Source: Henricia sp. BOLD:AAB3569
Taxonomy: Eukaryota; Echinodermata; Asteroidea; Spinulosida; Echinasteridae
Length of the DNA stretch: 64,000 nt
NCBI GenBank assembly: GCA_037783545.1
Contig: JBBELK010001241.1
Location: 62,001 to 126,000, forward strand
Reading direction: 5' to 3'
Positions 1 to 43,319 of the stretch are shown here, piece by piece. Below the pieces are notes generated by a model. That model saw nothing but the letters and a program-made list of their open reading frames with translations, did not search any database and was not told where the DNA came from. Within the stretch, counting starts at the first letter, position 1. Each line of letters begins with the position of its first letter. The position numbers were made by a program, and so were the translations under genes.

Positions 1-299
1 AAATCAAGGAATTTCCAACCAACTTCAAATTTTGCATGCTCCAAACTGTATATATTCCGCACCTTGACATGCAAAATTGACAGATTTTCGCTGGGAAATG
101 ACGGAGAAATTTCAGAGTGTAGGGAAAACGGAGCTCGGCTGGTGGTTATTCCCCTAACCGTGGCTGTTGGAACACCCTGCGCCGCGCTGGTGTACATTTG
201 TACGGCCGTTGACTCACCCCAGATTGTGACGGGAATTAGGTCAAAGTGTGTCCCAATGCCGGCAAATTTGGAAATCAAGGAATTTTCCAACCAACTTCA

Positions 300-349
300 A
301 ATTTTGCATGCTCCAAACTGTATATATTCCGCACTTGTCATGCAAAATT
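300..349. repeat. Inverted repeat inside the monomer (first intact copy)
   Basis: AATTTTGCATG at 300-310 and its exact reverse complement CATGCAAAATT at 339-349 are separated by 28 bases that include TATATATT. The pair recurs in nearly every monomer and could form a hairpin or cruciform with an 11-bp stem. The right arm contains the bond CATG|CAAAA, at which the satellite is broken at the island and at the inversion. Structure formation in vivo is inference. Confidence 0.9.
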
Positions 350-3300: not shown

Positions 3301-4025
3301 GAATTTTCCAACCAACTTCAAATTTTGCATGCTCCAAACTGTATATATTCCGCACTTGTCATGCAAAATTGACAGATTTTCGCTGGGAAATGACGGAGAA
3401 ATTTCAGAGTTTAGGGAAAACGGAGCTCGGCTGCGTGGTTATTCCCTAACCGTGGCTGTTGGGACACCCTGCGCCGCGGCTGGTGTACATTTGTACGGCC
3501 GTTGACTCACCCCAGATTGTGACGGGAATTAGGTCAAAGTGTGTCCCAAATGCCGGCAAATTTGGAAATCAAGGAATTTTCCAACCAACTTCAAATTTTG
3601 CATGCTCCAAACTGTATATATTCCGCACTTGTCATGCAAAATTGACAGATTTTCGCTGGGAAATGACGGAGAAATTTCAGAGTTTAGGGAAAACGGAGCT
3701 CGGCTGCGTGGTTATTCCTCTAACCGTGGCTGTTGGGACACCCTGCGCCGCGCTGGTGTACATTTGTACGGCCGTTGACTCACCCCAGATTGTGACGGGA
3801 ATTAGGTCAAAGTGTGTCCCAAATGCCGGCAAATTTGGAAATCAAGAATTTTCCAACCAACTTCAAATTTTGCATGCTCCAAACTGTATATATTCCGCAC
3901 TTGTCATGCAAAATTGACAGATTTTCGCTGGAAATGACGGAGAAATTTCAGAGTTTAGGGAAAACGGAGCTCGGCTGCGTGGTTATTCCCTCTAACCGTG
4001 GCTGTTGGGACACCCTGCGCCGCGC

Positions 4026-4045
4026 TGGTGTACATTGGTGTACAT
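4026..4045 (+). repeat. Private 10-bp tandem duplication in one monomer
   Basis: TGGTGTACAT occurs twice in a row at 4,026-4,035 and 4,036-4,045, in a place where every other monomer has it once. It looks like a single slippage event, or an assembly error, in one copy. Confidence 0.85.
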
Positions 4046-7000: not shown

Positions 7001-8496
7001 AACGGAGCTCGGCTGCGTGGTTATTCCCTCTAACCGTGGCTGTTGGGACACCCTGCGCCGCGCTGGTGTACATTTGTACGGCCGTTGACTCACCCCAGAT
7101 TGTGACGGGAATTAGGTCAAAGTGTGTCCCAAATGCGGCAAATTTGGAAATCAAGGAATTTTCCAACCAACTTCAAATTTTGCATGCTCCAAACTGTATA
7201 TATTCCGCACTTGTCATGCAAAATTGACAGATTTTCGCTGGGAAATGACGGAGAAATTTCAGAGTTTAGGGAAAACGGAGCTCGGCTGCGTGGTTATTCC
7301 CTAACCGTGGCTGTTGGGACACCCTGCGCCGCGCTGGTGTACATTTGTACGGCCGTTGACTCACCCAGATTGTGACGGGAATTAGGTCAAAGTGTGTCCC
7401 AAATGCCGGCAAATTTGGAAATCAAGGAATTTTCCAACCAACTTCAAATTTTGCATGCTCCAAACTGTATATATTCCGCACTTGTCATGCAAAATTGATA
7501 GATTTTCGCTGGGAAATGACGGAGAAATTTCAGAGTTTAGGGAAAACGGAGCTCGGCTGCGTGGTTATTCCCCTAACCGTGGCTGTTGGGACACCCTGCG
7601 CATGCGCCCGCGCTGGTGTACATTTGTACGGCCGTTGACTCACCCCAGATTGTGACGAGAATTAGGTCAAAGTGTGTCCCAAATGCCGGCAAATTTGGAA
7701 ATCAAGGAATTTTTCAACCAACTTCAAATTTTGCATGCTCCAAACTGTATATATTCCGCACTTGTCATGCAAAATTGACAGATTTTCGCTGGGAAATGAC
7801 CGATAAATTTCAGAGTTTAGGGAAAACGGAGCTCGGCTGCGTGGTTATTCCCCTAACCGTGGCTGTTGGGACACCCTGCGCATGCGCCGCGCTGGTGTAC
7901 ATTTGTACGGCCGTTGACTCACCCAGATTGTGACGGGAATTAGGTCAAAGTGTGTCCCAAATGCCGGCAAATTTGGAAATCAAGGAATTTTCCAACCAAC
8001 TTCAAATTTTGCATGCTCCAAACTGTATATATTCCGCACTTGTCATGCAAAATTGACAGATTTTCGCTGGGAAATGACGGAGAAATTTCAGAGTTTAGGG
8101 AAAACGGAGCTCGGCTGCGTGGTTATTCCCCTAACCGTGGCTGTTGGGACACCCTGCGCCGCGCTGGTGTACATTTGTACGGCCGTTGACTCACCCCAGA
8201 TTGTGACGGGAATTAGGTCAAAGTGTGTCCCAAATGCCGGCAAATTTGGAAATCAAGGAATTTTCCAACCAACTTCAAATTTTGCATGCTCCAAACTGTA
8301 TATATTCCGCACTTGTCATGCAAAATTGACAGATTTTCGCTGGGAAATGACGGAGAAATTTCAGAGTTTAGGGAAAACGGAGCTCGGCTGCGTGGTTATT
8401 CCCTCTAACCGTGGCTGTTGGGACACCCTGCGCCGCGCTGGTGTACATTTGTACGGCCGTTGACTCACCCCAGATTGTGACGGGAATTAGGTCAAA

Positions 8497-8769
8497 GTGT
8501 GTCCCAAATGCCGGCAAATTTGGAAATCAAGGAATTTTCCAACCAACTTCAAATTTTGCATGCTCCAAACTGTATATATTCCGCACTTGTCATGCAAAAT
8601 TGACAGATTTTCGCTGGGAAATGACGGAGAAATTTCAGAGTTTAGGGAAAACGGAGCTCGGCTGCGTGGTTATTCCCCTAACCGTGGCTGTTGGGACACC
8701 CTGCGCCGCGCTGGTGTACATTTGTACGGCCGTTGACTCACCCCAGATTGTGACGGGAATTAGGTCAAA
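8497..8769 (+). repeat. Representative 273-bp satellite monomer
   Basis: This copy is free of the private indels seen in many neighbours and serves as a reference. In order it carries a kappa-B-like GGAATTTTCC (8,531-8,540), a long inverted repeat around GCATG and CATGC, a TATATATT stretch (8,573-8,580), GAGCTC, a short CCCTGCGCCGCGCTGG segment that defines the 273-bp class, and TGACTCA (8,734-8,740). One of its six frames is open from end to end, for 91 codons. By chance about 1.3% of random 91-codon frames would be open, so roughly 7-8% of such monomers would have at least one. This is weak evidence for coding. Confidence 0.95.
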
Positions 8770-11700
8770 GTGTGTCCCAAATGCCGGCAAATTGGAAATC
8801 AAGGAATTTTCCAACCAACTTCAAATTTTGCATGCTCCAAACTGTATATATTCCGCACTTGTCATGCAAAATTGATAGATTTTCGCTGGGAAATGACGGA
8901 GAAATTTCAGAGTTTAGGGAAAACGGAGCTCGGCTGCGTGGTTATTCCCCTAACCGTGGCTGTTGGGACACCCTGCGCATGCGCCGCGCTGGTGTACATT
9001 TGTACGGCCGTTGACTCACCCCAGATTGTGACGAGAATTAGGTCAAAGTGTGTCCCAAATGCCGGCAAATTTGGAAATCAAGGAATTTTTCAACCAACTT
9101 CAAATTTTGCATGCTCCAAACTGTATATATTCCGCACTTGTCATGCAAAATTGACAGATTTTCGCTGGGAAATGACCGATAAATTTCAGAGTTTAGGGAA
9201 AACGGAGCTCGGCTGCGTGGTTATTCCCCTAACCGTGGCTGTTGGGACACCCTGCGCATGCGCCGCGCTGGTGTACATTTGTACGGCCGTTGACTCACCC
9301 CAGATTGTGACGGGAATTAGGTCAAAGTGTGTCCCAAATGCCGGCAAATTTGGAATCAAGGAATTTTCCAACCAACTTCAAATTTTGCATGCTCCAAACT
9401 GTATATATTCCGCACTTGTCATGCAAAATTGACAGATTTTCGCTGGGAAATGACGGAGAAATTTCAGAGTTTAGGGAAAACGGAGCTCGGCTGCGTGGTT
9501 ATTCCCCTAACCGTGGCTGTTGGGACACCCTGCGCCGCGCTGGTGTACATTTGTACGGCCGTTGACTCACCCAGATTGTGACGGGAATTAGGTCAAAGTG
9601 TGTCCCAAATGCCGGCAAATTTGGAAATCAAGGAATTTTCCAACCAACTTCAAATTTTGCATGCTCCAAACTGTATATATTCCGCACTTGTCATGCAAAA
9701 TTGACAGATTTTCGCTGGGAAATGACGGAGAAATTTCAGAGTTTAGGGAAAACGGGCTCGGCTGCGTGGTTATTCCCCTAACCGTGGCTGTTGGGACACC
9801 CTGCGCATGCGCGCGCTGGTGTACATTTGTACGGCCGTTGACTCACCCCAGATTGTGACGAGAATTAGGTCAAAGTGTGTCCCAAATGCCGGCAAATTTG
9901 GAAATCAAGGAATTTTCAACCAACTTCAAATTTTGCATGCTCCAAACTGTATATATTCCGCACTTGTCATGCAAAATTGACAGATTTTCGCTGGGAAATG
10001 ACCGATAAATTTCAGAGTTTAGGGAAAACTGAGCTCGGCTGCGTGGTTATTCCCTAACCGTGGCTGTTGGGACACCCTGCGCATGCGCCGCGCTGGTGTA
10101 CATTTGTACGGCCGTTGACTCACCCCAGATTGTGACGGGAATTAGGTCAAAGTGTGTCCCAAATGCCGGCAAATTTGAAATCAAGGAATTTTCCAACCAA
10201 CTTCAAATTTTGCATGCTCCAAATTGTATATATTCCGCACTTGTCATGCAAAATTGACAGATTTTCGCTGGGAAATGACGGAGAAATTTCAGAGTTTAGG
10301 GAAAACGGAGCTCGGCTGCGTGGTTATTCCCCTAACCGTGGCTGTTGGGACACCCTGCGCCGCGCTGGTGTACATTTGTACGGCCGTTGACTCACCCAGA
10401 TTGTGACGGGAATTAGGTCAAAGTGTGTCCCAAATGCCGGCAAATTTGGAAATCAAGGAATTTTCCAACCAACTTCAAATTTTGCATGCTCCAAACTGTA
10501 TATATTCCGCACTTGTCATGCAAAATTGACAGATTTTCGCTGGGAAATGACGGAGAAATTTCAGAGTTTAGGGAAAACGGAGCTCGGCTGCGTGGTTATT
10601 CCCCTAACCGTGGCTGTTGGGACACCCTGCGCATGCGCCGCGCTGGTGTACATTTGTACGGCCGTTGACTCACCCCAGATTGTGACGAGAATTAGGTCAA
10701 AGTGTGTCCCAAATGCCGGCAAATTTGGAAATCAAGGAATTTTCCAACCAACTTCAAATTTTGCATGCTCCAAACTGTATATATTCCGCACTTGTCATGC
10801 AAAATTGACAGATTTTCGCTGGGAAATGACGGAGAAATTTCAGAGTTTAGGGAAAACGGAGCTCGGCTGCGTGGTTATTCCCCTAACCGTGGCTGTTGGG
10901 ACACCCTGCGCCGCGCTGGTGTACATTTGTACGGCCGTTGACTCACCCAGATTGTGACGGGAATTAGGTCAAAGTGTGTCCCAAATGCCGGCAAATTTGG
11001 AAATCAAGGAATTTCCAACCAACTTCAAATTTTGCATGCTCCAAACTGTATATGTTCCGCCCTTGTCATGCAAAATTGACAGATTTTCGCTGGGAAATGA
11101 CGGAGAAATTTCAGAGTTTAGGGAAAACGGAGCTCGGCTGCGTGGTTATTCCCCTAACCGTGGCTGTTGGGACACCCTGCGCCGCGCTGGTGTACATTTG
11201 TACGGCCGTTGACTCACCCAGATTGTGACGGGAATTAGGTCAAAGTGTGTCCCAAATGCCGGCAAATTTGGAAATCAAGGAATTTTCCAACCAACTTCAA
11301 ATTTTGCATGCTCCAAACTGTATATATTCCGCACTTGTCATGCAAAATTGACAGATTTTCGCTGGGAAATGACGGAGAAATTTCAGAGTTTAGGGAAAAC
11401 GGAGCTCGGCTGCCTGGTTATTCCCCTAACCGTGGCTGTTGGGACACCCTGCGCATGCGCCGCGCTGGTGTACATTTGTACGGCCGTTGACTCACCCAGA
11501 TTGTGACGAGGAATTAGGTCAAAGTGTGTCCCAAATGCCGGCAAATTTGGAAATCAAGGAATTTTCCAACCAACTTCAAATTTTGCATGCTCCAAACTGT
11601 ATATATTCCGCACTTGTCATGCAAAATTGACAGATTTTCGCTGGGAAATGACGGAGAAATTTCAGAGTTTAGGGAAAACGGAGCTCGGCTGCGTGGTTAT

Positions 11701-14700
11701 TCCCCTAACCGTGGCTGTTGGGACACCCTGCGCCGCGCTGGTGTACATTTGTACGGCCGTTGACTCACCCAGATTGTGACGGGAATTAGGTCAAAGTGTG
11801 TCCCAAATGCCGGCAAATTTGGAAATCAAGGAATTTTCCAACCAACTTCAAATTTTGCATGCTCCAAACTGTATATATTCCGCACTTGTCATGCAAAATT
11901 GACAGATTTTCGCTGGGAAATGACGGAGAAATTTCAGAGTTTAGGGAAAACGGAGCTCGGCTGCGTGGTTATTCCCTCTAACCGTGGCTGTTGGGACACC
12001 CTGCGCCGCGCTGGTGTACATTTGTACGGCCGTTGACTCACCCCAGATTGTGACGGGAATTAGGTCAAAGTGTGTCCCAAATGCCGGCAAATTTGGAAAT
12101 CAAGGAATTTTCCAACCAACTTCAAATTTTGCATGCTCCAAACTGTATATATTCCGCACTTGTCATGCAAAATTGACAGATTTTCGCTGGGAAATGACGG
12201 AGAAATTTCAGAGTTTAGGGAAAACGGAGCTCGGCTGCGTGGTTATTCCCTCTAACCGTGGCTGTTGGGACACCCTGCGCCGCGCTGGTGTACATTTGTA
12301 CGGCCGTTGACTCACCCCAGATTGTGACGGGAATTAGGTCAAAGTGTGTCCCAAATGCCGGCAAATTTGGAAATCAAGGAATTTTCAACCAACTTCAAAT
12401 TTTGCATGCTCCAAACTGTATATATTCCGCACTTGTCATGCAAAATTGACAGATTTTCGCTGGGAAATGACGGAGAAATTTCAGAGTTTAGGAAAACGGA
12501 GCTCGGCTGCGTGGTTATTCCCCTAACCGTGGCTGTTGGGACACCCTGCGCCGCGCTGGTGTACATTTGTACGGCCGTTGACTCACCCAGATTGTGACGG
12601 GAATTAGGTCAAAGTGTGTCCCAAATGCCGGCAAATTTGGAAATCAAGGAATTTTCCAACCAACTTCAAATTTTGCATGCTCCAAACTGTATATATTCCG
12701 CACTTGTCATGCAAAATTGATAGATTTTCGCTGGGAAATGACGGAGAAATTTCAGAGTTTAGGGAAAACGGAGCTCGGCTGCGTGGTTATTCCCTAACCG
12801 TGGCTGTTGGGACACCCTGCGCATGCGCCGCGCTGGTGTACATTTGTACGGCCGTTGACTCACCCCAGATTGTGACGAGAATTAGGTCAAAGTGTGTCCC
12901 AAATGCCGGCAAATTTGGAAATCAAGGAATTTTCAACCAACTTCAAATTTTGCATGCTCCAAACTGTATATATTCCGCACTTGTCATGCAAAATTGACAG
13001 ATTTTCGCTGGGAAATGACCGATAAATTTCAGAGTTTAGGGAAAACGGAGCTCGGCTGCGTGGTTATTCCCCTAACCGTGGCTGTTGGGACACCCTGCGC
13101 ATGCGCCGCGCTGGTGTACATTTGTACGGCCGTTGACTCACCCAGATTGTGACGGGAATTAGGTCAAAGTGTGTCCCAAATGCCGGCAAATTTGGAAATC
13201 AAGGAATTTTCCAACCAACTTCAAATTTTGCATGCTCCAAACTGTATATATTCCGCACTTGTCATGCAAAATTGACAGATTTTCGCTGGGAAATGACGGA
13301 GAAATTTCAGAGTTTAGGGAAAACGGAGCTCGCTGCGTGGTTATTCCCCTAACCGTGGCTGTTGGGACACCCTGCGCCGCGCTGGTGTACATTTGTACGG
13401 CCGTTGACTCACCCAGATTGTGACGGGAATTAGGTCAAAGTGTGTCCCAAATGCCGGCAAATTTGGAAATCAAGGAATTTCCAACCAACTTCAAATTTTG
13501 CATGCTCCAAACTGTATATATTCCGCACTTGTCATGCAAAATTGACAGATTTTCGCTGGGAAATGACGGAGAAATTTCAGAGTTTAGGGAAAACGGAGCT
13601 CGGCTGCGTGGTTATTCCCTAACCGTGGCTGTTGGGACACCCTGCGCATGCGCCGCGCTGGTGTACATTTGTACGGCCGTTGACTCACCCCAGATTGTGA
13701 CGAGAATTAGGTCAAAGTGTGTCCCAAATGCCGGCAAATTTGGAAATCAAGGAATTTTCCAACCAACTTCAAATTTTGCATGCTCCAAACTGTATATATT
13801 CCGCACTTGTCATGCAAAATTGACAGATTTTCGCTGGGAAATGACGGAGAAATTTCAGAGTTTAGGGAAAACGGAGCTCGGCTGCGTGGTTATTCCCCTA
13901 ACCGTGGCTGTTGGGACACCCTGCGCCGCGCTGGTGTACATTTGTACGGCCGTTGACTCACCCCAGATTGTGACGGGAATTAGGTCAAAGTGTGTCCCAA
14001 ATGCCGGCAAATTTGGAAATCAAGGAATTTTCCAACCAACTTCAAATTTTGCATGCTCCAAACTGTATATATTCCGCACTTGTCATGCAAAATTGACAGA
14101 TTTTCGCTGGGAAATGACGGAGAAATTTCAGAGTTTAGGGAAAACGGAGCTCGGCTGCGTAGTTATTCCCCTAACCGTGGCTGTTGGGACACCCTGCGCA
14201 TGCGCCGCGCTGGTGTACATTTGTACGGCCGTTGACTCACCCCAGATTGTGACGAGAATTAGGTCAAAGTGTGTCCCAAAATGCCGGCAAATTTGGAAAT
14301 CAAGGAATTTTTCAACCAACTTCAAATTTTGCATGCTCCAAACTGTATATATTCCGCACTTGTCATGCAAAATTGACAGATTTTCGCTGGGAAATGACCG
14401 ATAAATTTCAGAGTTTAGGGAAAACGGAGCTCGGCTGCGTGGTTATTCCCCTAACCGTGGCTGTTGGGACACCCTGCGCATGCGCCGCGCTGGTGTACAT
14501 TTGTACGGCCGTTGACTCACCCCAGATTGTGACGGGAATTAGGTCAAAGTGTGTCCCAAATGCCGGCAAATTTGGAAATCAAGGAATTTTCCAACCAACT
14601 TCAAATTTTGCATGCTCCAAATTGTATATATTCCGCACTTGTCATGCAAAATTGACAGATTTTCGCTGGAAATGACGGAGAAATTTCAGAGTTTAGGGAA

Positions 14701-17700
14701 AACGGAGCTCGGCTGCGTGGTTATTCCCCTAACCGTGGCTGTTGGGACACCCTGCGCCGCGCTGGTGTACATTTGTACGGCCGTTGACTCACCCAGATTG
14801 TGACGGGAATTAGGTCAAAGTGTGTCCCAAATGCCGGCAAATTTGGAAATCAAGGAATTTTCCAACCAACTTCAAATTTTGCATGCTCCAAACTGTATAT
14901 ATTCCGCACTTGTCATGCAAAATTGACAGATTTTCGCTGGGAAATGACGGAGAAATTTCAGAGTTTAGGGAAAACGGAGCTCGGCTGCGTGGTTATTCCC
15001 CTAACCGTGGCTGTTGGGACACCCTGCGCATGCGCCGCGCTGGTGTACATTTGTATGGCCGTTGACTCACCCCAGATTGTGACGAGAATTAGGTCAAAGT
15101 GTGTCCCAAATGCCGGCAAATTTGGAAATCAAGGAATTTTCCAACCAACTTCAAATTTTGCATGCTCCAAACTGTATATATTCCGCACTTGTCATGCAAA
15201 ATTGACAGATTTTCGCTGGGAAATGACGGAGAAATTTCAGAGTTTAGGGAAAACGGAGCTCGGCTGCGTGGTTATTCCCCTAACCGTGGCTGTTGGGACA
15301 CCCTGCGCCGCGCTGGTGTACATTTGTACGGCCGTTGACTCACCCCAGATTGTGACGGGAATTAGGTCAAAGTGTGTCCCAAATGCCGGCAAATTTGGAA
15401 ATCAAGGAATTTTCCACCAACTTCAAATTTTGCATGCTCCAAACTGTATATATTCCGCCCTTGTCATGCAAAATTGACAGATTTTCGCTGGGAAATGACG
15501 GAGAAATTTCAGAGTTTAGGGAAAACGGAGCTCGGCTGCGTGGTTATTCCCCCTAACCGTGGCTGTTGGACACCCTGCGCATGCGCCGCGCTGGTGTACA
15601 TTTGTACGGCCGTTGACTCACCCAGATTGTGACGGAATTAGGTCAAAGTGTGTCCAAATGCCGGCAAATTTGGAAATCAAGAATTTTTCAACCAACTTCA
15701 AATTTTGCATGCTCCAAACTGTATATATTCCGCACTTGTCATGCAAAATTGACCGATTTTCGCTGGGAAATGACGGAGAAATTTCAGAGTTTAGGGAAAA
15801 CGGAGCTCGGCTGCGTGGTTATTCCCCTAACCGTGGCTGTTGGGACACCCTGCGCCGCGCTGGTGTACATTTGTACGGCCGTTGACTCACCCCAGATTGT
15901 GACGGGAATTAGGTCAAAGTGTGTCCCAAATGCCGGCAAATTTGGAAATCAAGGAATTTTCCAACCAACTTCAAATTGTGCATGCTCCAAACTGTATATA
16001 TTCCGCACTTGTCATGCAAAATTGACAGATTTTCGCTGGGAAATGACGGAGAAATTTCAGAGTTTAGGGAAAACGGAGCTCGGCTGCGTGGTTATTCCCC
16101 TAACCGTGGCTGTTGGGACACCCTGCGCCGCGCTGGTGTACATTTGTACGGCCGTTGACTCACCCCAGATTGTGACGGGAATTAGGTCAAAGTGTGTCCC
16201 AAATGCCGGCAAATTTGGAAATCAAGGAATTTTCCAACCAACTTCAAATTTTGAACGCTCCAAACTGTATATATTCCGCACTTGTCATGCAAAATTGACA
16301 GATTTTCGCTGGGAAATGACGGAGAAATTTTAGAGTTTAGGGAAAACGGAGCTCGGCTGCGTGGTTATTCCCCTAACCGTGGCTGTTGGGACACCCTGCG
16401 CCGCGCTGGTGTACATTTGTACGGCCGTTGACTCACCCCAGATTGTGACGGGAATTAGGTCAAAGTGTGTCCCAAATGCCGGCAAATTTGGAAATCAAGG
16501 AATTTTCCAACCAACTTCAAATTGTGCATGCTCCAAACTGTATATATTCCGCACTTGTCATGCAAAATTGACAGATTTTCGCTGGGAAATGACGGAGAAA
16601 TTTCAGAGTTTAGGGAAAACGGAGCTCGGCTGCGTGGTTATTCCCCTAACCGTGGCTGTTGGGACACCCTGCGCCGCGCTGGTGTACATTTCTACGGCCG
16701 TTGACTCACCCCAGATTGTGACGGGAATTAGGTCAAAGTGTGTCCCAAATGCCGGCAAATTTGGAAATCAAGGAATTGTCCAACCAACTTCAAATTTTGC
16801 ATGCTCCAAACTGTATATATTCCGCACTTGTCATGCAAAATTGACAGATTTTCGCTGGGAAATGACGGAGACATTTCAGAGTTTAGGGAAAACGGAGCTC
16901 GGCTGCGTGGTTATTCCCCTAACCGTGGCTGTTGGGACACCCTGCGCCGCGCTGGTGTACATTTCTACGGCCGTTGACTCACCCCAGATTGTGACGGGAA
17001 TTAGGTCAAAGTGTGTCCCAAATGCCGGCAAATTTGGAAATCAAGGAATTTTCCAACCAACTTCAAATTTTGCATGCTCCAAACTGTATATATTCCGCAC
17101 TTGTCATGCAAAATTGACAGATTTTCGCTGGGAAATGACGGAGAAATTTCAGAGTTTAGGGAAAACGGAGCTCGGCTGCGTGGTTATTCCCCTAACCGTG
17201 GCTGTTGGGACACCCTGCGCCGCGCTGGTGTACATTTGTACGGCCGTTGACTCACCCCAGATTGTTACGGGAATTAGGTCAAAGTGTGTCCCAAATGCCG
17301 GCAAATTTGGAAATCAAGGAATTTTCCAACCAACTTCAAATTTTGCATGCTCCAAACTGTATATATTCCGCACTTGTCATGCAAAATTGACAGATTTTCG
17401 CTGGGAAATGACGGAGAAATTTCAGAGTTGAGGGAAAACGGAGCTCGGCTGCGTGGTTATTCCCCTAACCGTGGCTGTTGGGACACCCTGCGCCGCGCTG
17501 GTGTACATTTGTACGGCCGTTGACTCACCCCAGATTGTGACGGGAATTAGGTCAAAGTGTGTCCCAAATGCCGGCAAATTTGGAAATCAAGGAATTTTCC
17601 AACCAACTTCAAATTTTGCACGCTCCAAACTGTATATATTCCGCACTTGTCATGCAAAATTGACAGATTTTCGCTGGGAAATGACGGAGAAATTTTAGAG

Positions 17701-18757
17701 TTTAGGGAAAACGGAGCTCGGCTGCGTGGTTATTCCCCTAACCGTGGCTGTTGGGACACCCTGCGCCGCGCTGGTGTACATTTGTACGGCCGTTGACTCA
17801 CCCAGATTGTGACGGGAATTAGGTCAAAGTGTGTCCCAAATGCCGGCAAATTTGGAAATCAAGGAATTTTCCAACCAACTTCAAATTGTGCATGCTCCAA
17901 ACTGTATATATTCCGCACTTGTCATGCAAAATTGACAGATTTTCGCTGGGAAATGACGGAGAAATTTCAGAGTTTAGGGAAAACGGAGCTCGGCTGCGTG
18001 GTTATTCCCCTAACCGTGGCTGTTGGGACACCCTGCGCATGCGCCGCGCTGGTGTACATTTGTACGGCCGTTGACTCACCCCAGATTGTGACGGGAATTA
18101 GGTCAAAGTGTGTCCCAAATGCCGGCAATTTTGGAAATCAAGGAATTTTCCAACCAACTTCAAATTCTGCATGCTCCAAACTGTATATATTCCGCACTTG
18201 TCATGCAAAATTGACAGATTTTCGCTGGGAAATGACGGAGAAATTTCAGAGTTTAGGGAAAACGGAGCTCGCCTGCGTGGTTATTCCCCTAACCGTGGCT
18301 GTTGGGACACCCTGCGCATGCGCCGCGCTGGTGTACATTTGTACGGCCGTTGACTCACCCCAGATTGTGACGGGAATTATGTCAAAGTGTGTCCCAAATG
18401 CCGGCAAATTTGGAAATCAAGGAATTTTCCAACCAACTTCAAATTTTGCATGCTCCAAACTGTATATATTCCGCACTTGTCATGCAAAATTGACAGATTT
18501 TCGCTGGGAAATGACGGAGAAATTTCAGAGTTTAGCGAAAACGGAGCTCGGCTGCGTGGTTATTCCCCTAACCGTGGCTGTTGGACACCCTGCGCATGCG
18601 CTGGTGTACATTTATACGGCCGTTGACTCACCCCAGATTGTGACGGGAATTAGGTCAAAGTGTGTCCCAAATGCCGGCAAATTTGGAAATCAAGGAATTT
18701 TCCAACCAACTTCAAATTTTGCATGCTCCAAACTGTATATATTCCGCACTTGTCATG

Positions 18758-19266
18758 GTACACATGGTGATTATGTGGCACACGCAAAGTACTGTATGCA
18801 CGGTATATTCTACATGTATGTCGAATATCAAAATGGAAGTTGACAAAGTTTGCGATGGTATATGTCAAGCAAATCGCATACCATTGTCGATGAGTGGCAG
18901 TTCCGTTGCAACTTTGCCGTAAACTCGATGGAGGAATAATCCAGGTCCCCGGTACGCTAGTTCGTGGCTCACAATCTGTCGATATCAGTTCTGTAAATTC
19001 GCATTCCTCACCGGCGTTCGATCCTGTCTGCACCCGTGCCTCGGTCGGTCTATGCGTACATGTAGCTCATCCGCCGTGTGCATGATGCGCACACAGTTCG
19101 GTTGGTCGGTACACAATTATCGTTAATTCATTGCTTGCGCTGCTGTTGTTTGTCACGAAGACAATCCCCACGGATCCGTTCTGACTGGCGAAAGTTTTCA
19201 GTTTTGTTTTGGTAGCATTTTGCGTGCAATCTTTCCTCTGCTGCCACCATGAAGTGGTAGAGCAGA
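18758..19266. other. Unrecognised unique sequence, no gene supported
   Basis: About 509 bp with no similarity I recognise to the satellite, the SINE or the LINE. The longest minus-strand frame (about 100 non-satellite codons ending at 18,758) continues into satellite and has no recognisable motif. A small hairpin lies at 19,076-19,094 (GTGTGC, a 7-base loop, GCACAC). A textbook-looking start context GCCACCATG at 19,243-19,251 opens only three codons before a stop. If the SINE interrupted the LINE, LINE sequence would continue here on the minus strand, but I see no reverse-transcriptase C-terminal motif in it. Confidence 0.6.
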
Positions 19267-19279
19267 CACGTTCTAGCAG
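19267..19279. repeat. SINE target-site duplication, left copy
   Basis: CACGTTCTAGCAG, matching 19,566-19,578 at 12 of 13 bases (last nine identical). It abuts the (TTG)n tail of the SINE. Confidence 0.85.
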
Positions 19280-19295
19280 TTGTTGTTGTTGTTGT
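19280..19295 (+). repeat. (TTG)n microsatellite, SINE 3' tail
   Basis: Five TTG units and one extra T, next to the left target duplication. On the SINE strand this is a CAA-repeat tail. Simple-repeat tails are typical of tRNA-derived SINEs and of the LINE machinery that mobilises them. Confidence 0.9.
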
Positions 19296-19499
19296 ATATT
19301 TTATGGCATCTTCGGCAACTAAGGCCCTTTATGCCATCAACTATACGGTTTTAGCTTTAACTATACTATATTATCAACTTGAGATGACGAAGAAGGAGTT
19401 GCAGTTTAGAAGTGGGAGGAAAACCCCCAGAGAAAATGCCCCAGGGGAAAAACCCACGCGGTCAAGTAGGGACTGCAAACCCAATCCACATACACGCCC

Positions 19500-19510
19500 G
19501 GATTCGAACC
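19500..19510 (-). promoter_or_regulatory. Pol III B box of the SINE
   Basis: On the minus strand this reads GGTTCGAATCC, an exact match to the B-box consensus GGTTCGANTCC (T-arm of a tRNA). It is the strongest single piece of evidence that the element is tRNA-derived. Confidence 0.92.
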
Positions 19511-19542
19511 CGGGACCCCAGAGGTGAAAGGCGAGGAAAGAA

Positions 19543-19553
19543 CCCGTACGCCA
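19543..19553 (-). promoter_or_regulatory. Pol III A box of the SINE
   Basis: On the minus strand this reads TGGCGTACGGG, which fits TRGYNNARNGG except at one position. It lies about 32 bases upstream of the B box, within the usual spacing for tRNA-type internal promoters. Confidence 0.75.
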
Positions 19554-19565
19554 ACCCGACCGCCC

Positions 19566-19578
19566 CACATTCTAGCAG
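19566..19578. repeat. SINE target-site duplication, right copy
   Basis: CACATTCTAGCAG, pairing with 19,267-19,279 (one mismatch, G to A at the fourth base). It marks the 5' end of the minus-strand SINE. Confidence 0.85.
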
Positions 19579-19600
19579 CGTCTATGATCTAAGTCTTTAT

Positions 19601-20369
19601 TCATGTAACACACTGAATAGGAGCGGAGTGCCGCATGTTTCCTACGCACATGAAATAGTCCCTTACAATAATACAACAATAGGGGGACACATACATGTAG
19701 TTGCCGTAAAGCCACCGGATAGAAACGAAGTCACTGACGGTTAGGTGGAAATGCTTCAACTTACCTAACATAAACAAGCGTGAGTTAACACGCTTGATCA
19801 TTGAATTAATTTATATACACGTCCCAATTAAAATCTGCTTGGATGAACACACCTAGCAGTTTAACCACATCACTACGCTCAATTGTGGCGTGATTCTGAC
19901 TTTGTACGGTTGGAACTGGTTTGACACGTGAGAAACAGATGTCTAAAATTTGGCACTTTGAAGGGTTTAGTTGGATCTTGTTCCGAACAGACCAATGATG
20001 CAACTCAGCAAGGGCTGTGGAGAGGTTAGATCTCGTATCTACTCCATGGGTTTCGACCAAAGTGACGTCATCAACGTATTTAAAATGTTGTATATTGGTC
20101 AAGTGATTGAAATTGATATCATTAACGACGGCCAAAAAACCAAAGGGCCCAATTTTGTGCCTTGCGGGACACCAGCGCAGACAGGGGACCAATCTGACAC
20201 AGATTGACCAATCTGACACAGATTGACCGTACTTCACACAACAAATCGGCAATCCATACAACTAAGGAGGATGGAACACCCATAGTCATCAAGAGCTTGG
20301 AAATGGCTAGGGTGTGATCAACTTGATCGAACGCCTTAAAGAAATCTTAGACAAAACAGATGATGCCGG
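19601..20369 (-). mobile_element. Decayed LINE (non-LTR retrotransposon) reverse-transcriptase fragment
   Basis: Minus-strand translation shows reverse-transcriptase landmarks in the right order but in different frames. Motif A DFFKAFDQVDH is at 20,314-20,346, followed by the family-typical LLMTMGVPSSLVVW. AGVPQGTKLGPL (motif B) is at 20,141-20,176. The catalytic motif C, FKYVDD, has its YVDD at 20,067-20,078. LNPSKCQIL is at 19,944-19,970. The thumb region KLLGVFIQADFNWD lies at about 19,812-19,864, and the connection region IKRVNSRLFMLGKLKHF at 19,748-19,798. LINE proteins use this domain for target-primed reverse transcription. Several frame changes and an in-frame stop before motif A make it a dead copy. 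One frame change is explained by a 19-bp tandem duplication at 20,191-20,228. The endonuclease end is missing, cut by the satellite at 20,369, and the 3' end is not recognisable past about 19,600. GVPQGTKLGP followed by KYVDD resembles jockey/CR1-like elements of invertebrates. I do not assign a clade. Confidence 0.9.
20191..20228. repeat. 19-bp tandem duplication within the LINE fragment
   Basis: AATCTGACACAGATTGACC occurs twice in direct succession (20,191-20,209 and 20,210-20,228). Nineteen is not a multiple of three, so it shifts the reverse-transcriptase frame between motif A and motif B. Confidence 0.95.
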
Positions 20370-20544
20370 CAAAATTGACAGATTTTCGCTGGGAAATGAC
20401 GGAGAAATTTCAGAGTTTAGGGAAAACGGAGCTCGGCTGCGTGGTTATTCTCCTAACCGTGGCTGTTGGGACACCCTGCGCCGCGCTGGTGTACATTTGT
20501 ACGGCCGTTGACTCACCCCAGATTGTGACGGGAATTAGGTCAAA

Positions 20545-20818
20545 GTGTGTCCCAAATGCCGGCAAATTTGGAAATCAAGGAATTTTCCAACCAACTTCAA
20601 ATTTTGCATGCTCCAAACTGTATATATTCCGCACTTGTCATGCAAAATTGACAGATTTTCGCTGGGAAATGACGGAGAAATTTCAGAGTTTAGGGAAAAC
20701 GGAGCTCGGCTGCGTGGTTATTCCCCTAACCGTGGCTGTTGGGACACCCTGCGCATGCGCTGGTGTACATTTCTACGGCCGTTGACTCACCCCAGATTGT
20801 GACGGGAATTAGGTCAAA
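20545..20818 (+). repeat. Representative 274-bp monomer class
   Basis: This class reads CCCTGCGCATGCGCTGG at the variable spot. It keeps the palindrome of the 279-bp class but lacks the five bases CCGCG that follow. It nearly always carries CATTTCTACGG in place of CATTTGTACGG just downstream, so the two changes are linked and define a subfamily. It is common right of 20.4 kb on both strands and almost missing left of 18.5 kb. Its length shifts the long open frame. Confidence 0.95.
20751..20760. repeat. Palindrome GCGCATGCGC at the length-variable spot
   Basis: A perfect 10-bp palindrome made of strictly alternating purines and pyrimidines, present in the 274-bp and 279-bp classes and absent from the 273-bp class. 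All three length classes differ exactly here. Alternating GC-rich tracts of this kind are known to favour Z-DNA and slippage. That this drives the length change is inference. Confidence 0.85.
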
Positions 20819-21365
20819 GTGTGTCCCAAATGTCGGCAAATTTGGAAATCAAGGAATTTTCCAACCAACTTCAAATTTTGCATGCTCCAAACTGTATATA
20901 TTCCGCACTTGTCATGCAAAATTGACAGATTTTCGCTGGGAAATGACGGAGAAATTTCAGAGTTTAGGGAAAACGGAGCTCGGCTGCGTGGTTATTCCCC
21001 TAACCGTGGCTGTTGGGACACCCTGCGCATGCGCTGGTGTACATTTCTACGACCGTTGACTCACCCCAGATTGTGACGGGAATTAGGTCAAAGTGTGTCC
21101 CAAATGTCGACAAATTTGGAAATCAAGGAATTTTCCAACCAACTTCAAATTTTGCATGCTCCAAACTGTATATATTCCGCACTTGTCATGCAAAATTGAC
21201 AGATTTTCGCTGGGAAATGACGGAGAAATTTCAGAGTTTAGGGAAAACGGAGCTCGGCTGCGTGGTTATTCCTCTAACCGTGGCTGTTGGGACACCCTGC
21301 GCCGCGCTGGTGTACATTTGTACGGCCGTTGACTCACCCCAGATTGTGACGGGAATTAGGTCAAA

Positions 21366-21644
21366 GTGTGTCCCAAATGCCGGCAAATTTGGAAATCAAG
21401 GAATTTTCCAACCAACTTCAAATTTTGCATGCTCCAAACTGTATATATTCCGCACTTGTCATGCAAAATTGACAGATTTTCGCTGGGAAATGACGGAGAA
21501 ATTTCAGAGTTTAGGGAAAACGGAGCTCGGCTGCGTGGTTATTCCCCTAACCGTGGCTGTTGGGACACCCTGCGCATGCGCCGCGCTGGTGTACATTTGT
21601 ACGGCCGTTGACTCACCCCAGATTGTGACGGGAATTAGGTCAAA
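21366..21644 (+). repeat. Representative 279-bp monomer class
   Basis: Identical in plan to the 273-bp form but with six extra bases at the GC-rich spot, giving CCCTGCGCATGCGCCGCGC. The extra bases create the perfect palindrome GCGCATGCGC. Because 279 is also a multiple of three, the open frame is kept. The class is found in all three satellite blocks. Confidence 0.95.
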
Positions 21645-22189
21645 GTGTGTCCAAATGCCGGCAAATTTGGAAATCATGGAATTTTGCAACCAACTTCAAA
21701 TTTTGCATGCTCCAAACTGTATATATTCCGCACTTGTCATGCAAAATTGACAAATTTTCGCTGGAAATGACGGAGAAATTTCAGAGTTTAGGGAAAACGG
21801 AGCTCGGCTGCGTGGTTATTCCCCTAACCGTGGCTGTTGGGACACCCTGCGCATGCGCTGGTGTACATTTCTACGGCCGTTGACTCACCCCAGATTGTGA
21901 CGGGAATTAGGTCAAAGTGTGTCCCAAATGCCGGCAAATTTGGAAATCAAGGAATTTTCCAACCAACTTCAAATTTTGCATGCTCCAAACTGTATATATT
22001 CCGCACTTGTCATGCAAAATTGACAGATTTTCGCTGGAAATGACGGAGAAATTTCAGAGTTTAGGGAAAACGGAGCTCGGCTGCGTGGTTATACCCCTAA
22101 CCGTGGCTGTTGGGACACCCTGCGCATGCGCTGGTGTACATTTCTACGGCCGTTGACTCACCCCAGATTGTGACGGGAATTAGGTCAAA

Positions 22190-25100
22190 GTGTGTCCCAA
22201 ATGTCGGCAAATTTGGAAATCAAGGAATTTTCCAACCAACTTCAAATTTTGCATGCTCCAAACTGTATATATTCCGCACTTGTCATGCAAAATTGACAGA
22301 TTTTCGCTGGGAAATGACGGAGAAATTTCAGAGTTTAGGGAAAACGGAGCTCGGCTGCGTGGTTATTCCCCTAACCGTGGCTGTTGGGACACCCTGCGCG
22401 CGCTGATGTACATTTGTACGGCCGTTGACTCACCCCAGATTGTGACGGGAATTAGGTCAAAGTGTGTCCCAAATGCCGGCAAATTTGGAAATCAATGAAT
22501 TTTCCAACCAACTTCAAATTTTGCATGCTCCAAACTGTATATATTCCGCACTTGTCATGCAAAATTGACAGATTTTTCGCTGGGAAATGACGGAGAAATT
22601 TCAGAGTTTAGGGAAAACGGAGCTCGGCTGCGTGGTTATTCCCCTAACCGTGGCTGTTGGGACACCCTGCGCCGCGCTGGTGTACATTTGTACGGCCGTT
22701 GACTCACCCAGATTGTGACGGGAATTAGGTCAAAGTGTGTCCCAAATGCCGGCAAATTTGGAAATCAAGGAATTTTCCATCCAACTTCAAATTTTGCATG
22801 CTCCAAACTGTATATATTCCGCACTTGTCATGCAAAATTGACAGATTTTCGCTGGGAAATTACGGAGAAATTTCAGAGTTTAGGGAAAACGGAGCTCGGC
22901 TGCGTGGTTATTCCCCTAACCGTGGCTGTTGGGACACCCTGCGCATGCGCTGGTGTACATTTCTACGGCCGTTGACTCACCCCAGATTGTGACGGGAATT
23001 AGGTCAAAGTGTGTCCCAAATGCCGGCAAATTTGGAAATCAAGGAATTTTCCAACCAACTTCAAATTTTGCATGCTCCAAACTGTATATATTCCGCACTT
23101 GTCATGCAAAATTGACAGATTTTCGCTTGGAAATGACGGAGAAATTTCAGAGTTTAGGGAAAACGGAGCTCGGCTGCGTGGTTATTCCCCTAACCGTGGC
23201 TGTTGGGACACCCTGCGCCGCGCTGGTGTACATTTGTACGGCCGTTGACTCACCCCAGATTGTGACGGGAATTAGGTCAAAGTGTGTCCCAAATGCCGGC
23301 AAATTTGGAAATCAAGGAATTTTCCAACCAACTTCAATTTTGCATGCTCCAAACTGTATATATTCCGCACTTGTCATGCAAAATTGACAGATTTTCGCTG
23401 GAAATGACGGAGAAATTTCAGAGTTTAGGGAAAACGGAGCTCGGCTGCGTGGTTATTCCCCTAACCGTGGCTGTTGGGACACCCTGCGCATGCGCTGGTG
23501 TACATTTCTACGACCGTTGACTCACCCCAGATTGTGACGGGAATTAGGTCAAAGTGTGTCCCAAATGTCGGCAAATTTGGAAATCAAGGAATTTTCCAAC
23601 CAACTTCAAATTTTGCATGCTCCAAACTGTATATATTCCGCACTTGTCATGCAAAATTGACAGATTTTCGCTGGGAAATGACGGAGAAATTTCAGAGTTT
23701 AGGGAAAACGGAGCTCGGCTGCGTGGTTATTCCCCTAACCGTGGCTGTTGGGACACCCTGCGCATGCGCTGGTGTACATTTCTACGGCCGTTGACTCACC
23801 CCAGATTGTGACGGGAATTAGGTCAAAGTGTGTCCCAAATGCCGGCAAATTTGGAAATCAAGGAATTTTCCAACCAACTTCAAATTTTGCATGCTCCAAA
23901 CTGTATATATTCCGCACTTGTCATGCAAAATTGACAGATTTTCGCTGGGAAATGACGGAGAAATTTCAGAGTTTAGGGAAAACGGAGCTCGGCTGCGTGG
24001 TTATACCCCTAACCGTGGCTGTTGGGACACCCTGCGCATGCGCTGGTGTACATTTCTACGGCCGTTGACTCACCCCAGATTGTGACGGGAATTAGGTCAA
24101 AGTGTGTCCCAAATGTCGGCAAATTTGGAAATCAAGGAATTTTCCAACAACTTCAAATTTTGCATGCTCCAAACTGTATATATTCCGCACTTGTCATGCA
24201 AAATTGACAGATTTTCGCTGGGAAATGACGGAGAAATTTCAGAGTTTAGGGAAAACGGAGCTCGGCTGCGTGGTTATTCCCCTAACCGTGGCTGTTGGGA
24301 CACCCTGCGCCGCGCTGATGTACATTTGTACGGCCGTTGACTCACCCCAGATTGTGACGGGAATTAGGTCAAAGTGTGTCCCAAATGCCGGCAAATTTGG
24401 AAATCAATGAATTTTCCAACCAACTTCAAATTTTGCATGCTCCAAACTGTATATATTCCGCACTTGTCATGCAAAATTGACAGATTTTCGCTGGGAAATG
24501 ACGGAGAAATTTCAGAGTTTAGGGAAAACGGAGCTCGGCTGCGTGGTTATTCCCCTAACCGTGGCTGTTGGGACACCCTGCGCCGCGCTGGTGTACATTT
24601 GTACGGCCGTTGACTCACCCCAGATTGTGACGGGAATTAGGTCAAAGTGTGTCCCAAATGCCGGCAAATTTGGAAATCAAGGAATTTTCCATCCAACTTC
24701 AAATTTTGCATGCTCCAAACTGTATATATTCCGCACTTGTCATGCAAAATTGACAGATTTTCGCTGGAAATTACGGAGAAATTTCAGAGTTTAGGGAAAA
24801 CGGAGCTCGGCTGCGTGGTTATTCCCCTAACCGTGGCTGTTGGGACACCCTGCGCATGCGCTGGTGTACATTTCTACGGCCGTTGACTCACCCCAGATTG
24901 TGACGGGAATTAGGTCAAAGTGTGTCCCAAATGCCGGCAAATTTGGAAATCAAGGAATTTTCCAACCAACTTCAAATTTTGCATGCTCCAAACTGTATAT
25001 ATTCCGCACTTGTCATGCAAAATTGACAGATTTTCGCTTGGAAATGACGGAGAAATTTCAGAGTTTAGGGAAAACGGAGCTCGGCTGCGTGGTTATTCCC

Positions 25101-25740
25101 CTAACCGTGGCTGTTGGGACACCCTGCGCCGCGCTGGTGTACATTTGTACGGCCGTTGACTCACCCCAGATTGTGACGGGAATTAGGTCAAAGTGTGTCC
25201 CAAATGCCGGCAAATTTGGAAATCAAGGAATTTTCCAACCAACTTCAAATTTTGCATGCTCCAAACTGTATATATTCCGCACTTGTCATGCAAAATTGAC
25301 AGATTTTCGCTGGGAAATGACGGAGAAATTTCAGAGTTTAGGGAAAACGGAGCTCGGCTGCGTGGTTATTCCCCTAACCGTGGCTGTTGGGACACCCTGC
25401 GCATGCGCTGGTGTACATTTCTACGACCGTTGACTCACCCCAGATTGTGACGGGAATTAGGTCAAAGTGTGTCCCAAATGTCGGCAAATTTGGAAATCAA
25501 GGAATTTTCCAACCAACTTCAAATTTTGCATGCTCCAAACTGTATATATTCCGCACTTGTCATGCAAAATTGACAGATTTTCGCTGGGAAATGACGGAGA
25601 AATTTCAGAGTTTAGGGAAAACGGAGCTCGGCTGCGTGGTTATTCCCCTAACCGTGGCTGTTGGGACACCCTGCGCATGCGCTGGTGTACATTTCTACGG
25701 CCGTTGACTCACCCCAGATTGTGACGGGAATTAGGTCAAA
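22190..25740 (+). repeat. 7-monomer higher-order repeat (1,912 bp), nearly two copies
   Basis: Monomers 22,190-24,101 are repeated in the same order from 24,102. Matching private markers at an offset of 1,911-1,913 bp are CGCTGATGTAC, ATCAATGAATT, TTTCCATCCAAC, GGAAATTACGG (AAATTACGG in the second copy), TTTCGCTTGG and CTACGACCG. The second copy departs from the pattern at 25,741, where a 279-bp-type monomer replaces the expected 274-bp one. Confidence 0.9.
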
Positions 25741-26390
25741 GTGTGTCCCAAATGTCGGCAAATTTGGAAATCAAGGAATTTTCCAACCAACTTCAATTTT
25801 GCATGCTCCAAACTGTATATATTCCGCACTTGTCATGCAAAATTGACAGATTTTCGCTGGGAAATGACGGAGAAATTTCAGAGTTTAGGGAAAACGGAGC
25901 TCGGCTGCGTGGTTATTCCCCTAACCGTGGCTGTTGGGACACCCTGCGCATGCGCCGCGCTGGTGTACATTTGTACGGCCGTTGACTCACCCCAGATTGT
26001 GACGGGAATTAGGTCAAAGTGTGTCCCAAATGCCGGCAAATTTGGAAATCAAGGAATTTTCCAACCAACTTCAAATTTTGCATGCTCCAAACTGTATATA
26101 TTCCGCACTTGTCATGCAAAATTGACAGATTTTCGCTGGGAAATGACGGAGAAATTTCAGAGTTTAGGGAAAACGGAGCTCGGCTGCGTGGTTATTCCCC
26201 TAACCGTGGCTGTTGGGACACCCTGCGCATGCGCTGGTGTACATTTCTACGGCCGTTGACTCACCCCAGATTGTGACGGGAATTAGGTCAAAGTGTGTCC
26301 CAAATGCCGGCAAATTTGGAAATCAAGGAATTTTCCAACCAACTTCAAATTTTGCATGCTCCAAACTGTATATATTCCGCACTTGTCATG

Positions 26391-26551
26391 CAAAATTGAC
26401 AGATTTTCGCTGGGAAATGACGGAGAAATTTCAGAGTTTAGGGAAAACGGAGCTCGGCTGCGTGGTTATTCCCCTAACCGTGGCTGTTGGGACACCCTGC
26501 GCATGCGCTGGTGTACATTTCTACGGCCGTTGACTCACCCCAGATTGTGAC
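26391..26551. other. Inversion junction of the satellite (tail to tail)
   Basis: The plus-strand array runs to GATTGTGAC at 26,543-26,551. The minus-strand array begins with CATGACAAGTGCGG at 26,551. Only the single C is shared. The minus-strand side starts exactly at the monomer bond CATG|CAAAA. The plus-strand side extends 160 bases beyond its own copy of that bond (26,390), so the palindrome has a 160-base asymmetric centre. The arms are not mirror copies: within about 90 bases one has the CCGGC form and the other the GTCGG form. Tail-to-tail satellite joins arise by inversion, fold-back repair or joining of two arrays, and the sequence does not decide between these. Confidence 0.93.
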
Positions 26552-28849
26552 ATGACAAGTGCGGAATATATACAGTTTGGAGCATGCAAAATTTGAAGTT
26601 GGTTGGAAAATTCCTTGATTTCCAAATTTGCCGACATTTGGGACACACTTTGACCTAATTCCCGTCACAATCTGGGGTGAGTCAACGGTCGTAGAAATGT
26701 ACACCAGCGCATGCGCAGGGTGTCCAACAGCCACGGTTAGGGGAATAACCACGCAGCCGAGCTCCGTTTTCCCTAAACTCTGAAATTTCTCCGTCATTTC
26801 CCAGCGAAAATCTGTCAATTTTGCATGACAAGGGCGGAATATATACAGTTTGGAGCATGCAAAATTTGAAGTTGGTTGGAAAATTCCTTGATTTCCAAAT
26901 TTGCCGACATTTGGGACACACTTTGACCTAATTCCCGTCACAATCTGGGGTGAGTCAACGGCCGTAGAAATGTACACCAGCGCATGCGCAGGGTGTCCCA
27001 ACAGCCACGGTTAGGGGTATAACCACGCAGCCGAGCTCCGTTTTCCCTAAACTCTGAAATTTCTCCGTCATTTCCCAGCGAAAATCTGTCAATTTTGCAT
27101 GACAAGTGCGGAATATATACAGTTTGGAGCATGCAAAATTTGAAGTTGGTTGGAAAATTCCTTGATTTCCAAATTTGCCGGCATTTGGGACACACTTTGA
27201 CCTAATTCCCGTCACAATCTGGGGTGAGTCAACGGCCGTAGAAATGTACACCAGCGCATGCGCAGGGTGTCCCAACAGCCACGGTTAGGGGAATAACCAC
27301 GCAGCCGAGCTCCGTTTTCCCTAAACTCTGAAATTTCTCCGTCATTTCCCAGCGAAAATCTGTCAATTTTGCATGACAAGTGCGGAATATATACAGTTTG
27401 GAGCATGCAAAATTTGAAGTTGGTTGGAAAATTCCTTGATTTCCAAATTTGCCGGCATTTTGGGACACACTTTGACCTAATTCCCGTCACAATCTGGGGT
27501 GAGTCAACGGCCGTACAAATGTACACCAGCGCGGCGCAGGGTGTCCCAACAGCCACGGTTAGGGGAATAACCACGCAGCCGAGCTCCGTTTTCCCTAAAC
27601 TCTGAAATTTCTCCGTCATTTCCAGCGAAAATCTGTCAATTTTGCATGACAAGTGCGGAATATATACAGTTTGGAGCATGCAAAATTTGAAGTTGGTTGG
27701 AAAATTCCTTGATTTCCAAATTTGCCGACATTTGGGACACACTTTGACCTAATTCCCGTCACAATCTGGGGTGAGTCAACGGTCGTAGAAATGTACACCA
27801 GCGCATGCGCAGGGTGTCCCAACAGCCACGGTTAGGGGAATAACCACGCAGCCGAGCTCCGTTTTCCCTAAACTCTGAAATTTCTCCGTCATTTCCCAGC
27901 GAAAATCTGTCAATTTTGCATGACAAGTGCGGAATATATACAGTTTGGAGCATGCAAAATTTGAAGTTGGTTGGAAAATTCCTTGATTTCCAAATTTGCC
28001 GACATTTGGGACACACTTTGACCTAATTCCCGTCACAATCTGGGGTGAGTCAACGGCCGTACAAATGTACACCAGCGCATGCGCAGGGTGTCCCAACAGC
28101 CACGGTTAGGGGAATAACCACGCAGCCGAGCTCCGTTTTCCCTAAACTCTGAAATTTCTCCGTCATTTCCCAGCGAAAATCTGTCAATTTTGCATGACAA
28201 GTGCGGAATATATACAGTTTGGAGCATGCAAAATTTGAAGTTGGTTGGAAAATTCCTTGATTTCCAAATTTGCCGACATTTGGACACACTTTGACCTAAT
28301 TCCCGTCACAATCTGGGGTGAGTCAACGGCCGTACAAATGTACACCAGCGCGGCGCATGCGCAGGGTGTCCCAACAGCCACGGTTAGGGGAATAACCCAC
28401 GCAGCCGAGCTCCGTTTTCCCTAAACTCTGAAATTTCTCCGTCATTTCCCAGCGAAAATCTGTCAATTTTGCATGACAAGTGCGGAATATATACAGTTTG
28501 GAGCATGCAAAATTTGAAGTTGGTTGGAAAATTCCTTGATTTCCAAATTTGCCGGCATTTGGGACACACTTTGACCTAATTCCCGTCACAATCTGGGGTG
28601 AGTCAACGGCCGTAGAAATGTACACCAGCGCATGCGCAGGGTGTCCCAACAGCCACGGTTAGGGAATAACCACGCAGCCGAGCTCCGTTTTCCCTAAACT
28701 CTGAAATTTCTCCGTCATTTCCAGCGAAAATCTGTCAATTTTGCATGACAAGTGCGGAATATATACAGTTTGGAGCATGCAAAATTTGAAGTTGGTTGGA
28801 AAATTCCTTGATTTCCAAATTTGCCGGCATTTGGGACACACTTTGACCT

Positions 28850-42830: not shown

Positions 42831-43319
42831 TTTGACCTAATTCCCGTCACAATCTGGGGTGAGTCAACGGCCGTACAAATGTACACCAGCGTGGCGCAGG
42901 GTGTCCCAACAGCCACGGTTAGGGGAATAACCACGCAGCCGAGCTCCGTTTTCCCTAAACTCTGAAATTTCTCCGTCATTTCCCAGCGAAAATCTGTCAA
43001 TTTTGCATGACAAGTGCGGAATATATACAGTTTGGAGCATGCAAAATTTGAAGTTGGTTGGAAAATTCCTTGATTTCCAAATTTGCCGGCATTTGGGACA
43101 CACTTTGACCTAATTCCCGTCACAATCTGGGGTGAGTCAACGGCCGTACAAATGTACACCAGCGCGGCGCATGCGCAGGGTGTCCCAACAGCCACGGTTA
43201 GGGGAATAACCACGCAGCCGAGCTCCGTTTTCCCTAAACTCTGAAATTTATCCGTCATTTCCCAGAGAAAAACTGTCAATTTTGCATGACAAGTGCGGAA
43301 TATATACAGTTTGGAGCAT

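Follow-up and report, generated by a model that had tools for sequence, protein, structure and literature searches.

The present analysis concerns a window of 64,000 nucleotides from the sea star Henricia sp. BOLD:AAB3569 (contig JBBELK010001241.1, hereafter C1241, bases 62,001–126,000, in an assembly of 740.7 Mb and 2,104 contigs that served for all genome-wide searches), of which all but 1.6 kb is a 273-bp satellite. The satellite is interrupted by an island of foreign DNA and, 6.2 kb further on, switches orientation. To judge from the letters, a single bond of the monomer, CAT/GCAAAA (the slash marks the bond), is compatible with both edges of the island and with one side of the orientation switch. 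With a confidence that reaches an even balance and goes no further, we regard the three edges as linked in some way, and as a relic of local history rather than the mark of a fragile site. Tandem Repeats Finder returned a period of 273 bp and array limits of 1–18757, 20369–26551 and 26551–64000, so that the window is laid out as follows.

1–18757, forward strand: satellite array L (273-bp monomer), its last monomer at 18485–18757 and ending ...CTTGTCATG
18758–20369, no strand assigned: island, a mosaic of transposable-element pieces, 1.6 kb
20370–26551, forward strand: satellite segment M, 22.6 monomers, beginning (G)CAAAATTG and ending at monomer position 160
26551–64000, reverse strand: satellite array R in inverted orientation, its junction monomer ending CTTGTCAT(G) on its own strand

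At the left edge of the island (18,757), the satellite ends in ...CCGCACTTGTCATG and is followed by GTACACATGG. On the satellite letters alone this edge is CATG/, but six relatives of the first element of the island read GTGGTAC, so that TG is assignable to either side and the edge lies up to two bases earlier if the donor had TG, an assignment limited by doubtful homology in the first 22 bases of the island. At the right edge (20,370), the satellite begins CAAAATTGACAG, preceded by ATGATGCCGG. Here the window reads GCCGG (at 20,369), where the aligned copies of the long interspersed nuclear element (LINE) read GCCGA in six cases out of seven and GCCAA in the other one. Because these copies differ at the last G, we place the edge at CAT/GCAAAA, the G being probably satellite. 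At the inversion (26,551), ...CCCCAGATTGTGA is followed by CATGACAAGTGCGG, and one C can be given to either side, which yields CAT/ or CATG/. Microhomology leaves each of the three edges uncertain by one or two bases. The preliminary description had set all three at exactly CATG/CAAAA; coordinates and letters uphold the coincidence, but only the minus-strand side of the inversion lies on the bond, the plus-strand side breaking at monomer position 160, and the bond itself is less exact than had been claimed. A restriction–ligation chimera at CATG was considered as a source of these joints and rejected by inspection, the right island edge having no CATG.

How surprising this coincidence is depends on how the edges are counted. 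If the island is a plain insertion, the agreement in phase of its two edges is trivial, and its flanks are indeed in phase, with no satellite lost. As for the inversion, whose junction sequence is unique in the assembly, the expectation of about once in 270 given earlier for an extra match does not hold once either side and the microhomology are counted: arithmetic allowing either side and two bonds per side brings it to ~4/273 (1.5%). Both points speak for two independent events, i.e., a lossless insertion of the island between L and M, then a later, unrelated orientation switch on the same bond, an account that we hold to be possible, if rather unlikely. It is at odds with the composition of the arrays on either side of the island.

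With one partial monomer of M excluded, variant calling covered 68 monomers in L, 23 in M and 225 in R. Three variants set M apart from L: variant 112 has a frequency of 0.55 in M, 0.01 in L and 0.42 in the nearest 40 monomers of R, variant 129C of 0.55, 0.03 and 0.35, and variant 189T of 0.32, 0.00 and 0.23, respectively. The jump in variants between L and M (1.22) exceeds every jump within an array (at most 0.32 in L and 0.82 in R), while that between R and M (0.2) is like those between neighbouring blocks; when labels were shuffled with 22 monomers per side, the observed value was reached in 1 of 2000 shuffles for L–M and in 1144 of 2000 for R–M. M thus has a near-R variant pool, unlike L. 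Therefore, the island is something other than a plain recent insertion into a uniform array: the flanking monomers do not share the one local pool that a simple insertion implies, even though an old insertion could have diverged, and no run of matching monomers crosses from L to M. Two independent events leave unexplained why L and M differ beyond what neighbouring blocks do inside L or R, why no such run is found and, finally, why one rare haplotype occurs in both monomers terminating at the bond.

18579–18604, forward strand: L67, the terminal monomer of L, with the rare haplotype TGTTGG-ACACCCTGCGCATGCGCTGG
26704–26729, reverse strand: R224, the monomer of R adjoining the inversion, with the same haplotype, TGTTGG-ACACCCTGCGCATGCGCTGG

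Among the sampled monomers, the 1-bp deletion 98 and variant 112 occur together only in L67 and R224, both of which end at the bond. Within L, variant 112 is found in L67 only (1/68), compared to 12 of the 23 monomers of M and 47 of the 225 of R. The 27-mer carrying the haplotype has 40 exact copies genome-wide, those on C1241 being L67 and R224 alone. For a comparison of pairs, we used the 303 monomers with at least one variant: 9 of 15,300 L × R pairs (~6 in 10,000), L67–R224 included, share a haplotype unique to the pair, which, with three testable terminal pairs considered, corresponds to a chance of ~2 in 1,000, and 6 of 15,300 pairs score as high as L67–R224 in summed rarity.

The shared pool of M and near R also fits another history, in which M would be a piece of R inverted where it stood. 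One broken bond would then have left its two halves at the start of M and at the end of R, and only the left island edge would match by chance. Joining CAT and GCAAAA indeed rebuilds the joint without the loss of a base. We consider this unlikely: the second break of the inversion must then coincide exactly with the boundary of the island, the order of monomers across R224 and M0 gives the adjacency no significant support, and the haplotype of L67 and R224 is left unexplained. An error of assembly, by which C1241 would merge unrelated satellite reads, is more improbable still. The contig is satellite-rich, 150 kb long and one of 2,104, and its variant pool changes at the island, as a merger might produce; yet the inversion is not a read-through palindrome, its sides breaking at monomer positions 160 and ~272, and the accounting by CAT/G is common to the island and inversion edges.

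We thus favour a linked local origin of the three edges, for which we tentatively propose one exact path, less secure than the linkage itself. An R-type array would have broken once at CAT/GCAAAA, and its left-type broken end would have been present twice, on sister chromatids or through copying of the end. One copy would now terminate L at the island, the other being the R monomer that meets the inversion; the start of M would represent the right-type end of the same break. The two left-type ends would then have been joined in opposite orientation, with 0–2 bp of microhomology of the kind found in end joining at broken DNA, through a 7.8-kb insert that consists of the captured island (1.6 kb) and M (6.2 kb). 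Finally, a later exchange would have overwritten array L up to its last monomer. In the opposite orientation of its arms around a short spacer, plus to 18,757 and minus from 26,551, the layout is like that of an inverted duplication. One linked rearrangement of this kind would explain why three edges lie on one bond, where the pool of M comes from and why the haplotype is shared. A common ancestral event linking island and inversion had been among the earlier suggestions; the variant pools and the rare haplotype of L67 and R224 favour it, short of proof. We also considered a fold-back primer, through inverted homology between the start of the island and the end of M, and discarded it, the score being reached by 456 of 3000 random island positions.

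Several observations weigh against this linked history. Its weakest point is that an inverted duplication needs L to have been replaced to within one monomer of the island. With regard to the haplotype, the number of variant entries that separate L67 from R224, five, is about average; 13 of the sampled monomers, at distance 4, resemble L67 more closely than R224 does, and R220, R184 and M18 each lie a single step away from R224. Moreover, the 1-bp deletion 98 is found in other backgrounds (L3, L56), with four occurrences in the window and 14 in the loci counted from other contigs, and may be recurrent, while the haplotype test itself was selected after inspection of the data. Monomer order is of no help either: no collinear run was found between L67 outward and R224 outward, L66 and its neighbours being unlike R223 and its neighbours, and the adjacency of R224 and M0 has no support from the order of monomers, since 65 of 588 null cuts equal it. 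Finally, the jump between L and near R (0.75) does not go beyond those inside R, and some distant blocks of R (4.28–4.51) are nearer to the 20 monomers at the end of L than the near blocks are (5.54); L is therefore not foreign to R overall.

At face value, three edges at one bond might rather suggest a hot spot of breakage or joining, whether a hairpin or a nuclease site, as was proposed from the window alone. The search of the assembly disfavours it. The 17-mer across the bond is intact at 144,604 places. Patterns made of the left half of the bond followed by non-consensus bases matched 2 and 8 places, and patterns made of the right half preceded by non-consensus bases matched 75 and 55. The left patterns jointly detect ~46% of random flanks and, by arithmetic, the two right patterns ~24% and ~32%; they recovered both edges of the window island, which serve as a positive control, and miss the window inversion because of its letters, so that a few further edges could escape. 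The two matches of the first left pattern were aligned and both read as internal deletions. All eight of the second were checked, yielding this island, a chance non-satellite match recognised by eye (L093) and six array-internal matches (L039, L040, L096–L099). For the first right pattern, 30 of the 75 places were aligned, none being an edge at the bond, and one more, L100, was read as a possible edge; for the second, one of the 55 is this island and two were read (L094, L095). The remaining 96 right-side places (44 of the 75 and 52 of the 55) were judged from the matched letters alone. Reading and alignment gave no certain edge at the bond beyond the two of the window island; the other places so inspected, besides L093 and L100, are small indels, duplications and deletions within arrays. 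At L100 (C1843:39150-39310), satellite lies beside an A/C-rich low-complexity sequence and carries many small deletions, and the stretch is possibly poorly assembled.

Control bonds at monomer positions 70, 160 and 200 gave the same kind of matches. For one control with 16 matches, 12 were aligned, all internal, and 4 were judged by letters; for another, both of 2 matches were aligned and internal; the 27 matches at position 70, taken by letters only, comprise 24 with one inserted base, 2 with a substitution in addition and 1 (TCAA) that is ambiguous. A further pattern had 10 matches, namely this inversion, one aligned place (L087) and eight recurrent ones (four of them read). Measured against the control bonds, the pattern search therefore found no excess of edges at this monomer position across unrelated arrays. 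The patterns are sensitive to about a quarter to half of random flanks. A strong hot spot would be expected to have produced further edges at the bond, whereas outside C1241 the patterns returned one possible edge (L100) and no certain one. Other insertions in satellite loci lie elsewhere in the monomer: the one in L067 at 255/261, and those in a sister satellite mostly at ~105–160, apart from one at 258 (L037). A hairpin could draw on the exact 11-bp inverted repeat across the bond, formed by AATTTTGCATG and CATGCAAAATT with 28 nt between them; however, one whole monomer (18485–18757) folds no better than its shuffles (z −0.58), and the repeat belongs to the monomer consensus, yet edges at the bond are scarce. 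Despite the three coinciding edges and the inverted repeat, neither a hairpin-prone site nor a preferred breakage point or nuclease target is thus borne out, and we rank the hot spot as the least probable account of all.

Three side observations concern the satellites themselves. At L067:1046-1485, an insert of 0.44 kb, apparently with a target duplication (ATATTCC), occupies monomer positions 255–261, and its start recurs 1.8 kb on, from 2869, seemingly amplified with the array. A variant monomer with a 5-bp insertion, GATTGTGACATGACGGG, which resembles the inversion junction sequence, has eight exact places (four read) on contigs C393, C632, C995 and C1643 (L089–L092); it could have supplied the inversion with 6 bp of microhomology (CATGAC) but is not needed for it, and none of the eight places is on C1241. 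A further satellite type, ~71% identical, reads CATAACAAAA or CATAAAAAA at the corresponding joint (L057, L065 and L066). In C1241, array R also fills the remaining 24 kb to the right of the window, and it contains a block with an 18-monomer higher-order period, in which R144–R164 match R126–R146 (window ~43000–53500, a position estimated from monomer numbers).

The island consists of three recognisable pieces, in which SINE stands for short interspersed nuclear element.

18780–19679, forward strand: a stretch of dispersed repeat 'A' that reaches the right end of the repeat and is split by the SINE-like insert
19280–19565, reverse strand: SINE-like insert, 0.29 kb, with 13-base flanks CACGTTCTAGCAG / CACATTCTAGCAG agreeing at 12 of 13 bases
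19725–20368, reverse strand: LINE fragment, a reverse transcriptase remnant, its right end truncated by the satellite

The copies of repeat 'A' (L017–L020, L022, L023) are ~89% identical over island positions 23–522 and 97% identical over 809–922, and its right end was taken to be where the right flanks of the copies diverge. The label "SINE-like" is based on length, tail and target duplication; the transfer RNA (tRNA) scan found no tRNA gene in this insert. The LINE fragment matches RVT_1 with an E-value of 1.9e-6 and 28.2 bits, slightly below the Pfam cut-off of 29.6 bits. Overall, the tRNA and Rfam scans gave no gene and nothing reaching an Rfam gathering score, two sub-threshold matches being disregarded. 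When the island was compared with the assembly, 40 of 941 candidates were scored, and among the 55 matches listed the only full-length one is the island itself. A single mobile unit or transposon was rejected, no second full copy with the same ends being present among these scored matches; from its sequence, the island does not look like one mobile element, and rather like a mosaic of several pieces. Copies of the SINE-like element, 97–99% identical, also lie inside the sister satellite, which is ~72% identical to the window family. There, the element recurs mostly at monomer positions ~105–160 (L025–L031, L036–L038), with a spacing that suggests a higher-order repeat.

If the three edges do go back to one event, the rearrangement history of an array can be read from its edge monomers and variant pools, though the monomers are ~98% alike. 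More speculatively, and on a weaker footing than the path proposed above, array-edge monomers may escape homogenisation and keep a record of old breaks, which could reveal fusions of sister ends after the arms have been overwritten. In any case, where edges in satellite DNA coincide in phase, common descent should be tested before a fragile site is proposed.

Satellite islands and inverted duplications with a spacer are already known kinds of structure. For a breakpoint phase shared by an island and an orientation switch, a non-exhaustive literature search found no title, and we do not claim that none is in print. In mouse, non-satellite sequence, including transposable elements, occurs in 10% of the arrays of the major satellite and in 1.77% of those of the minor satellite, and continuous arrays with "switched" monomers amount to 0.85% and 1.92%, according to PMC10880262; we take "switched" to refer to orientation, a word absent from that text. 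The array of the window is like these mouse satellites in being interspersed with a transposable-element island and, on that reading, in having an orientation switch. In contrast to the mouse passages available, in which no shared breakpoint phase appears, island and switch are here 6.2 kb apart and in phase. In human, inverted duplications of the fold-back or breakage-fusion-bridge type have spacers of 766–70,466 bp and short microhomology, as given in the available part of PMC3907307. The window resembles the cases described there in its opposite arms around a kilobase spacer (7.8 kb here) and in its short microhomology. It differs from them on two counts: their arms are mutual copies, while L and R do not match beyond their terminal monomers, and the spacer here includes, with the island, DNA of another origin.

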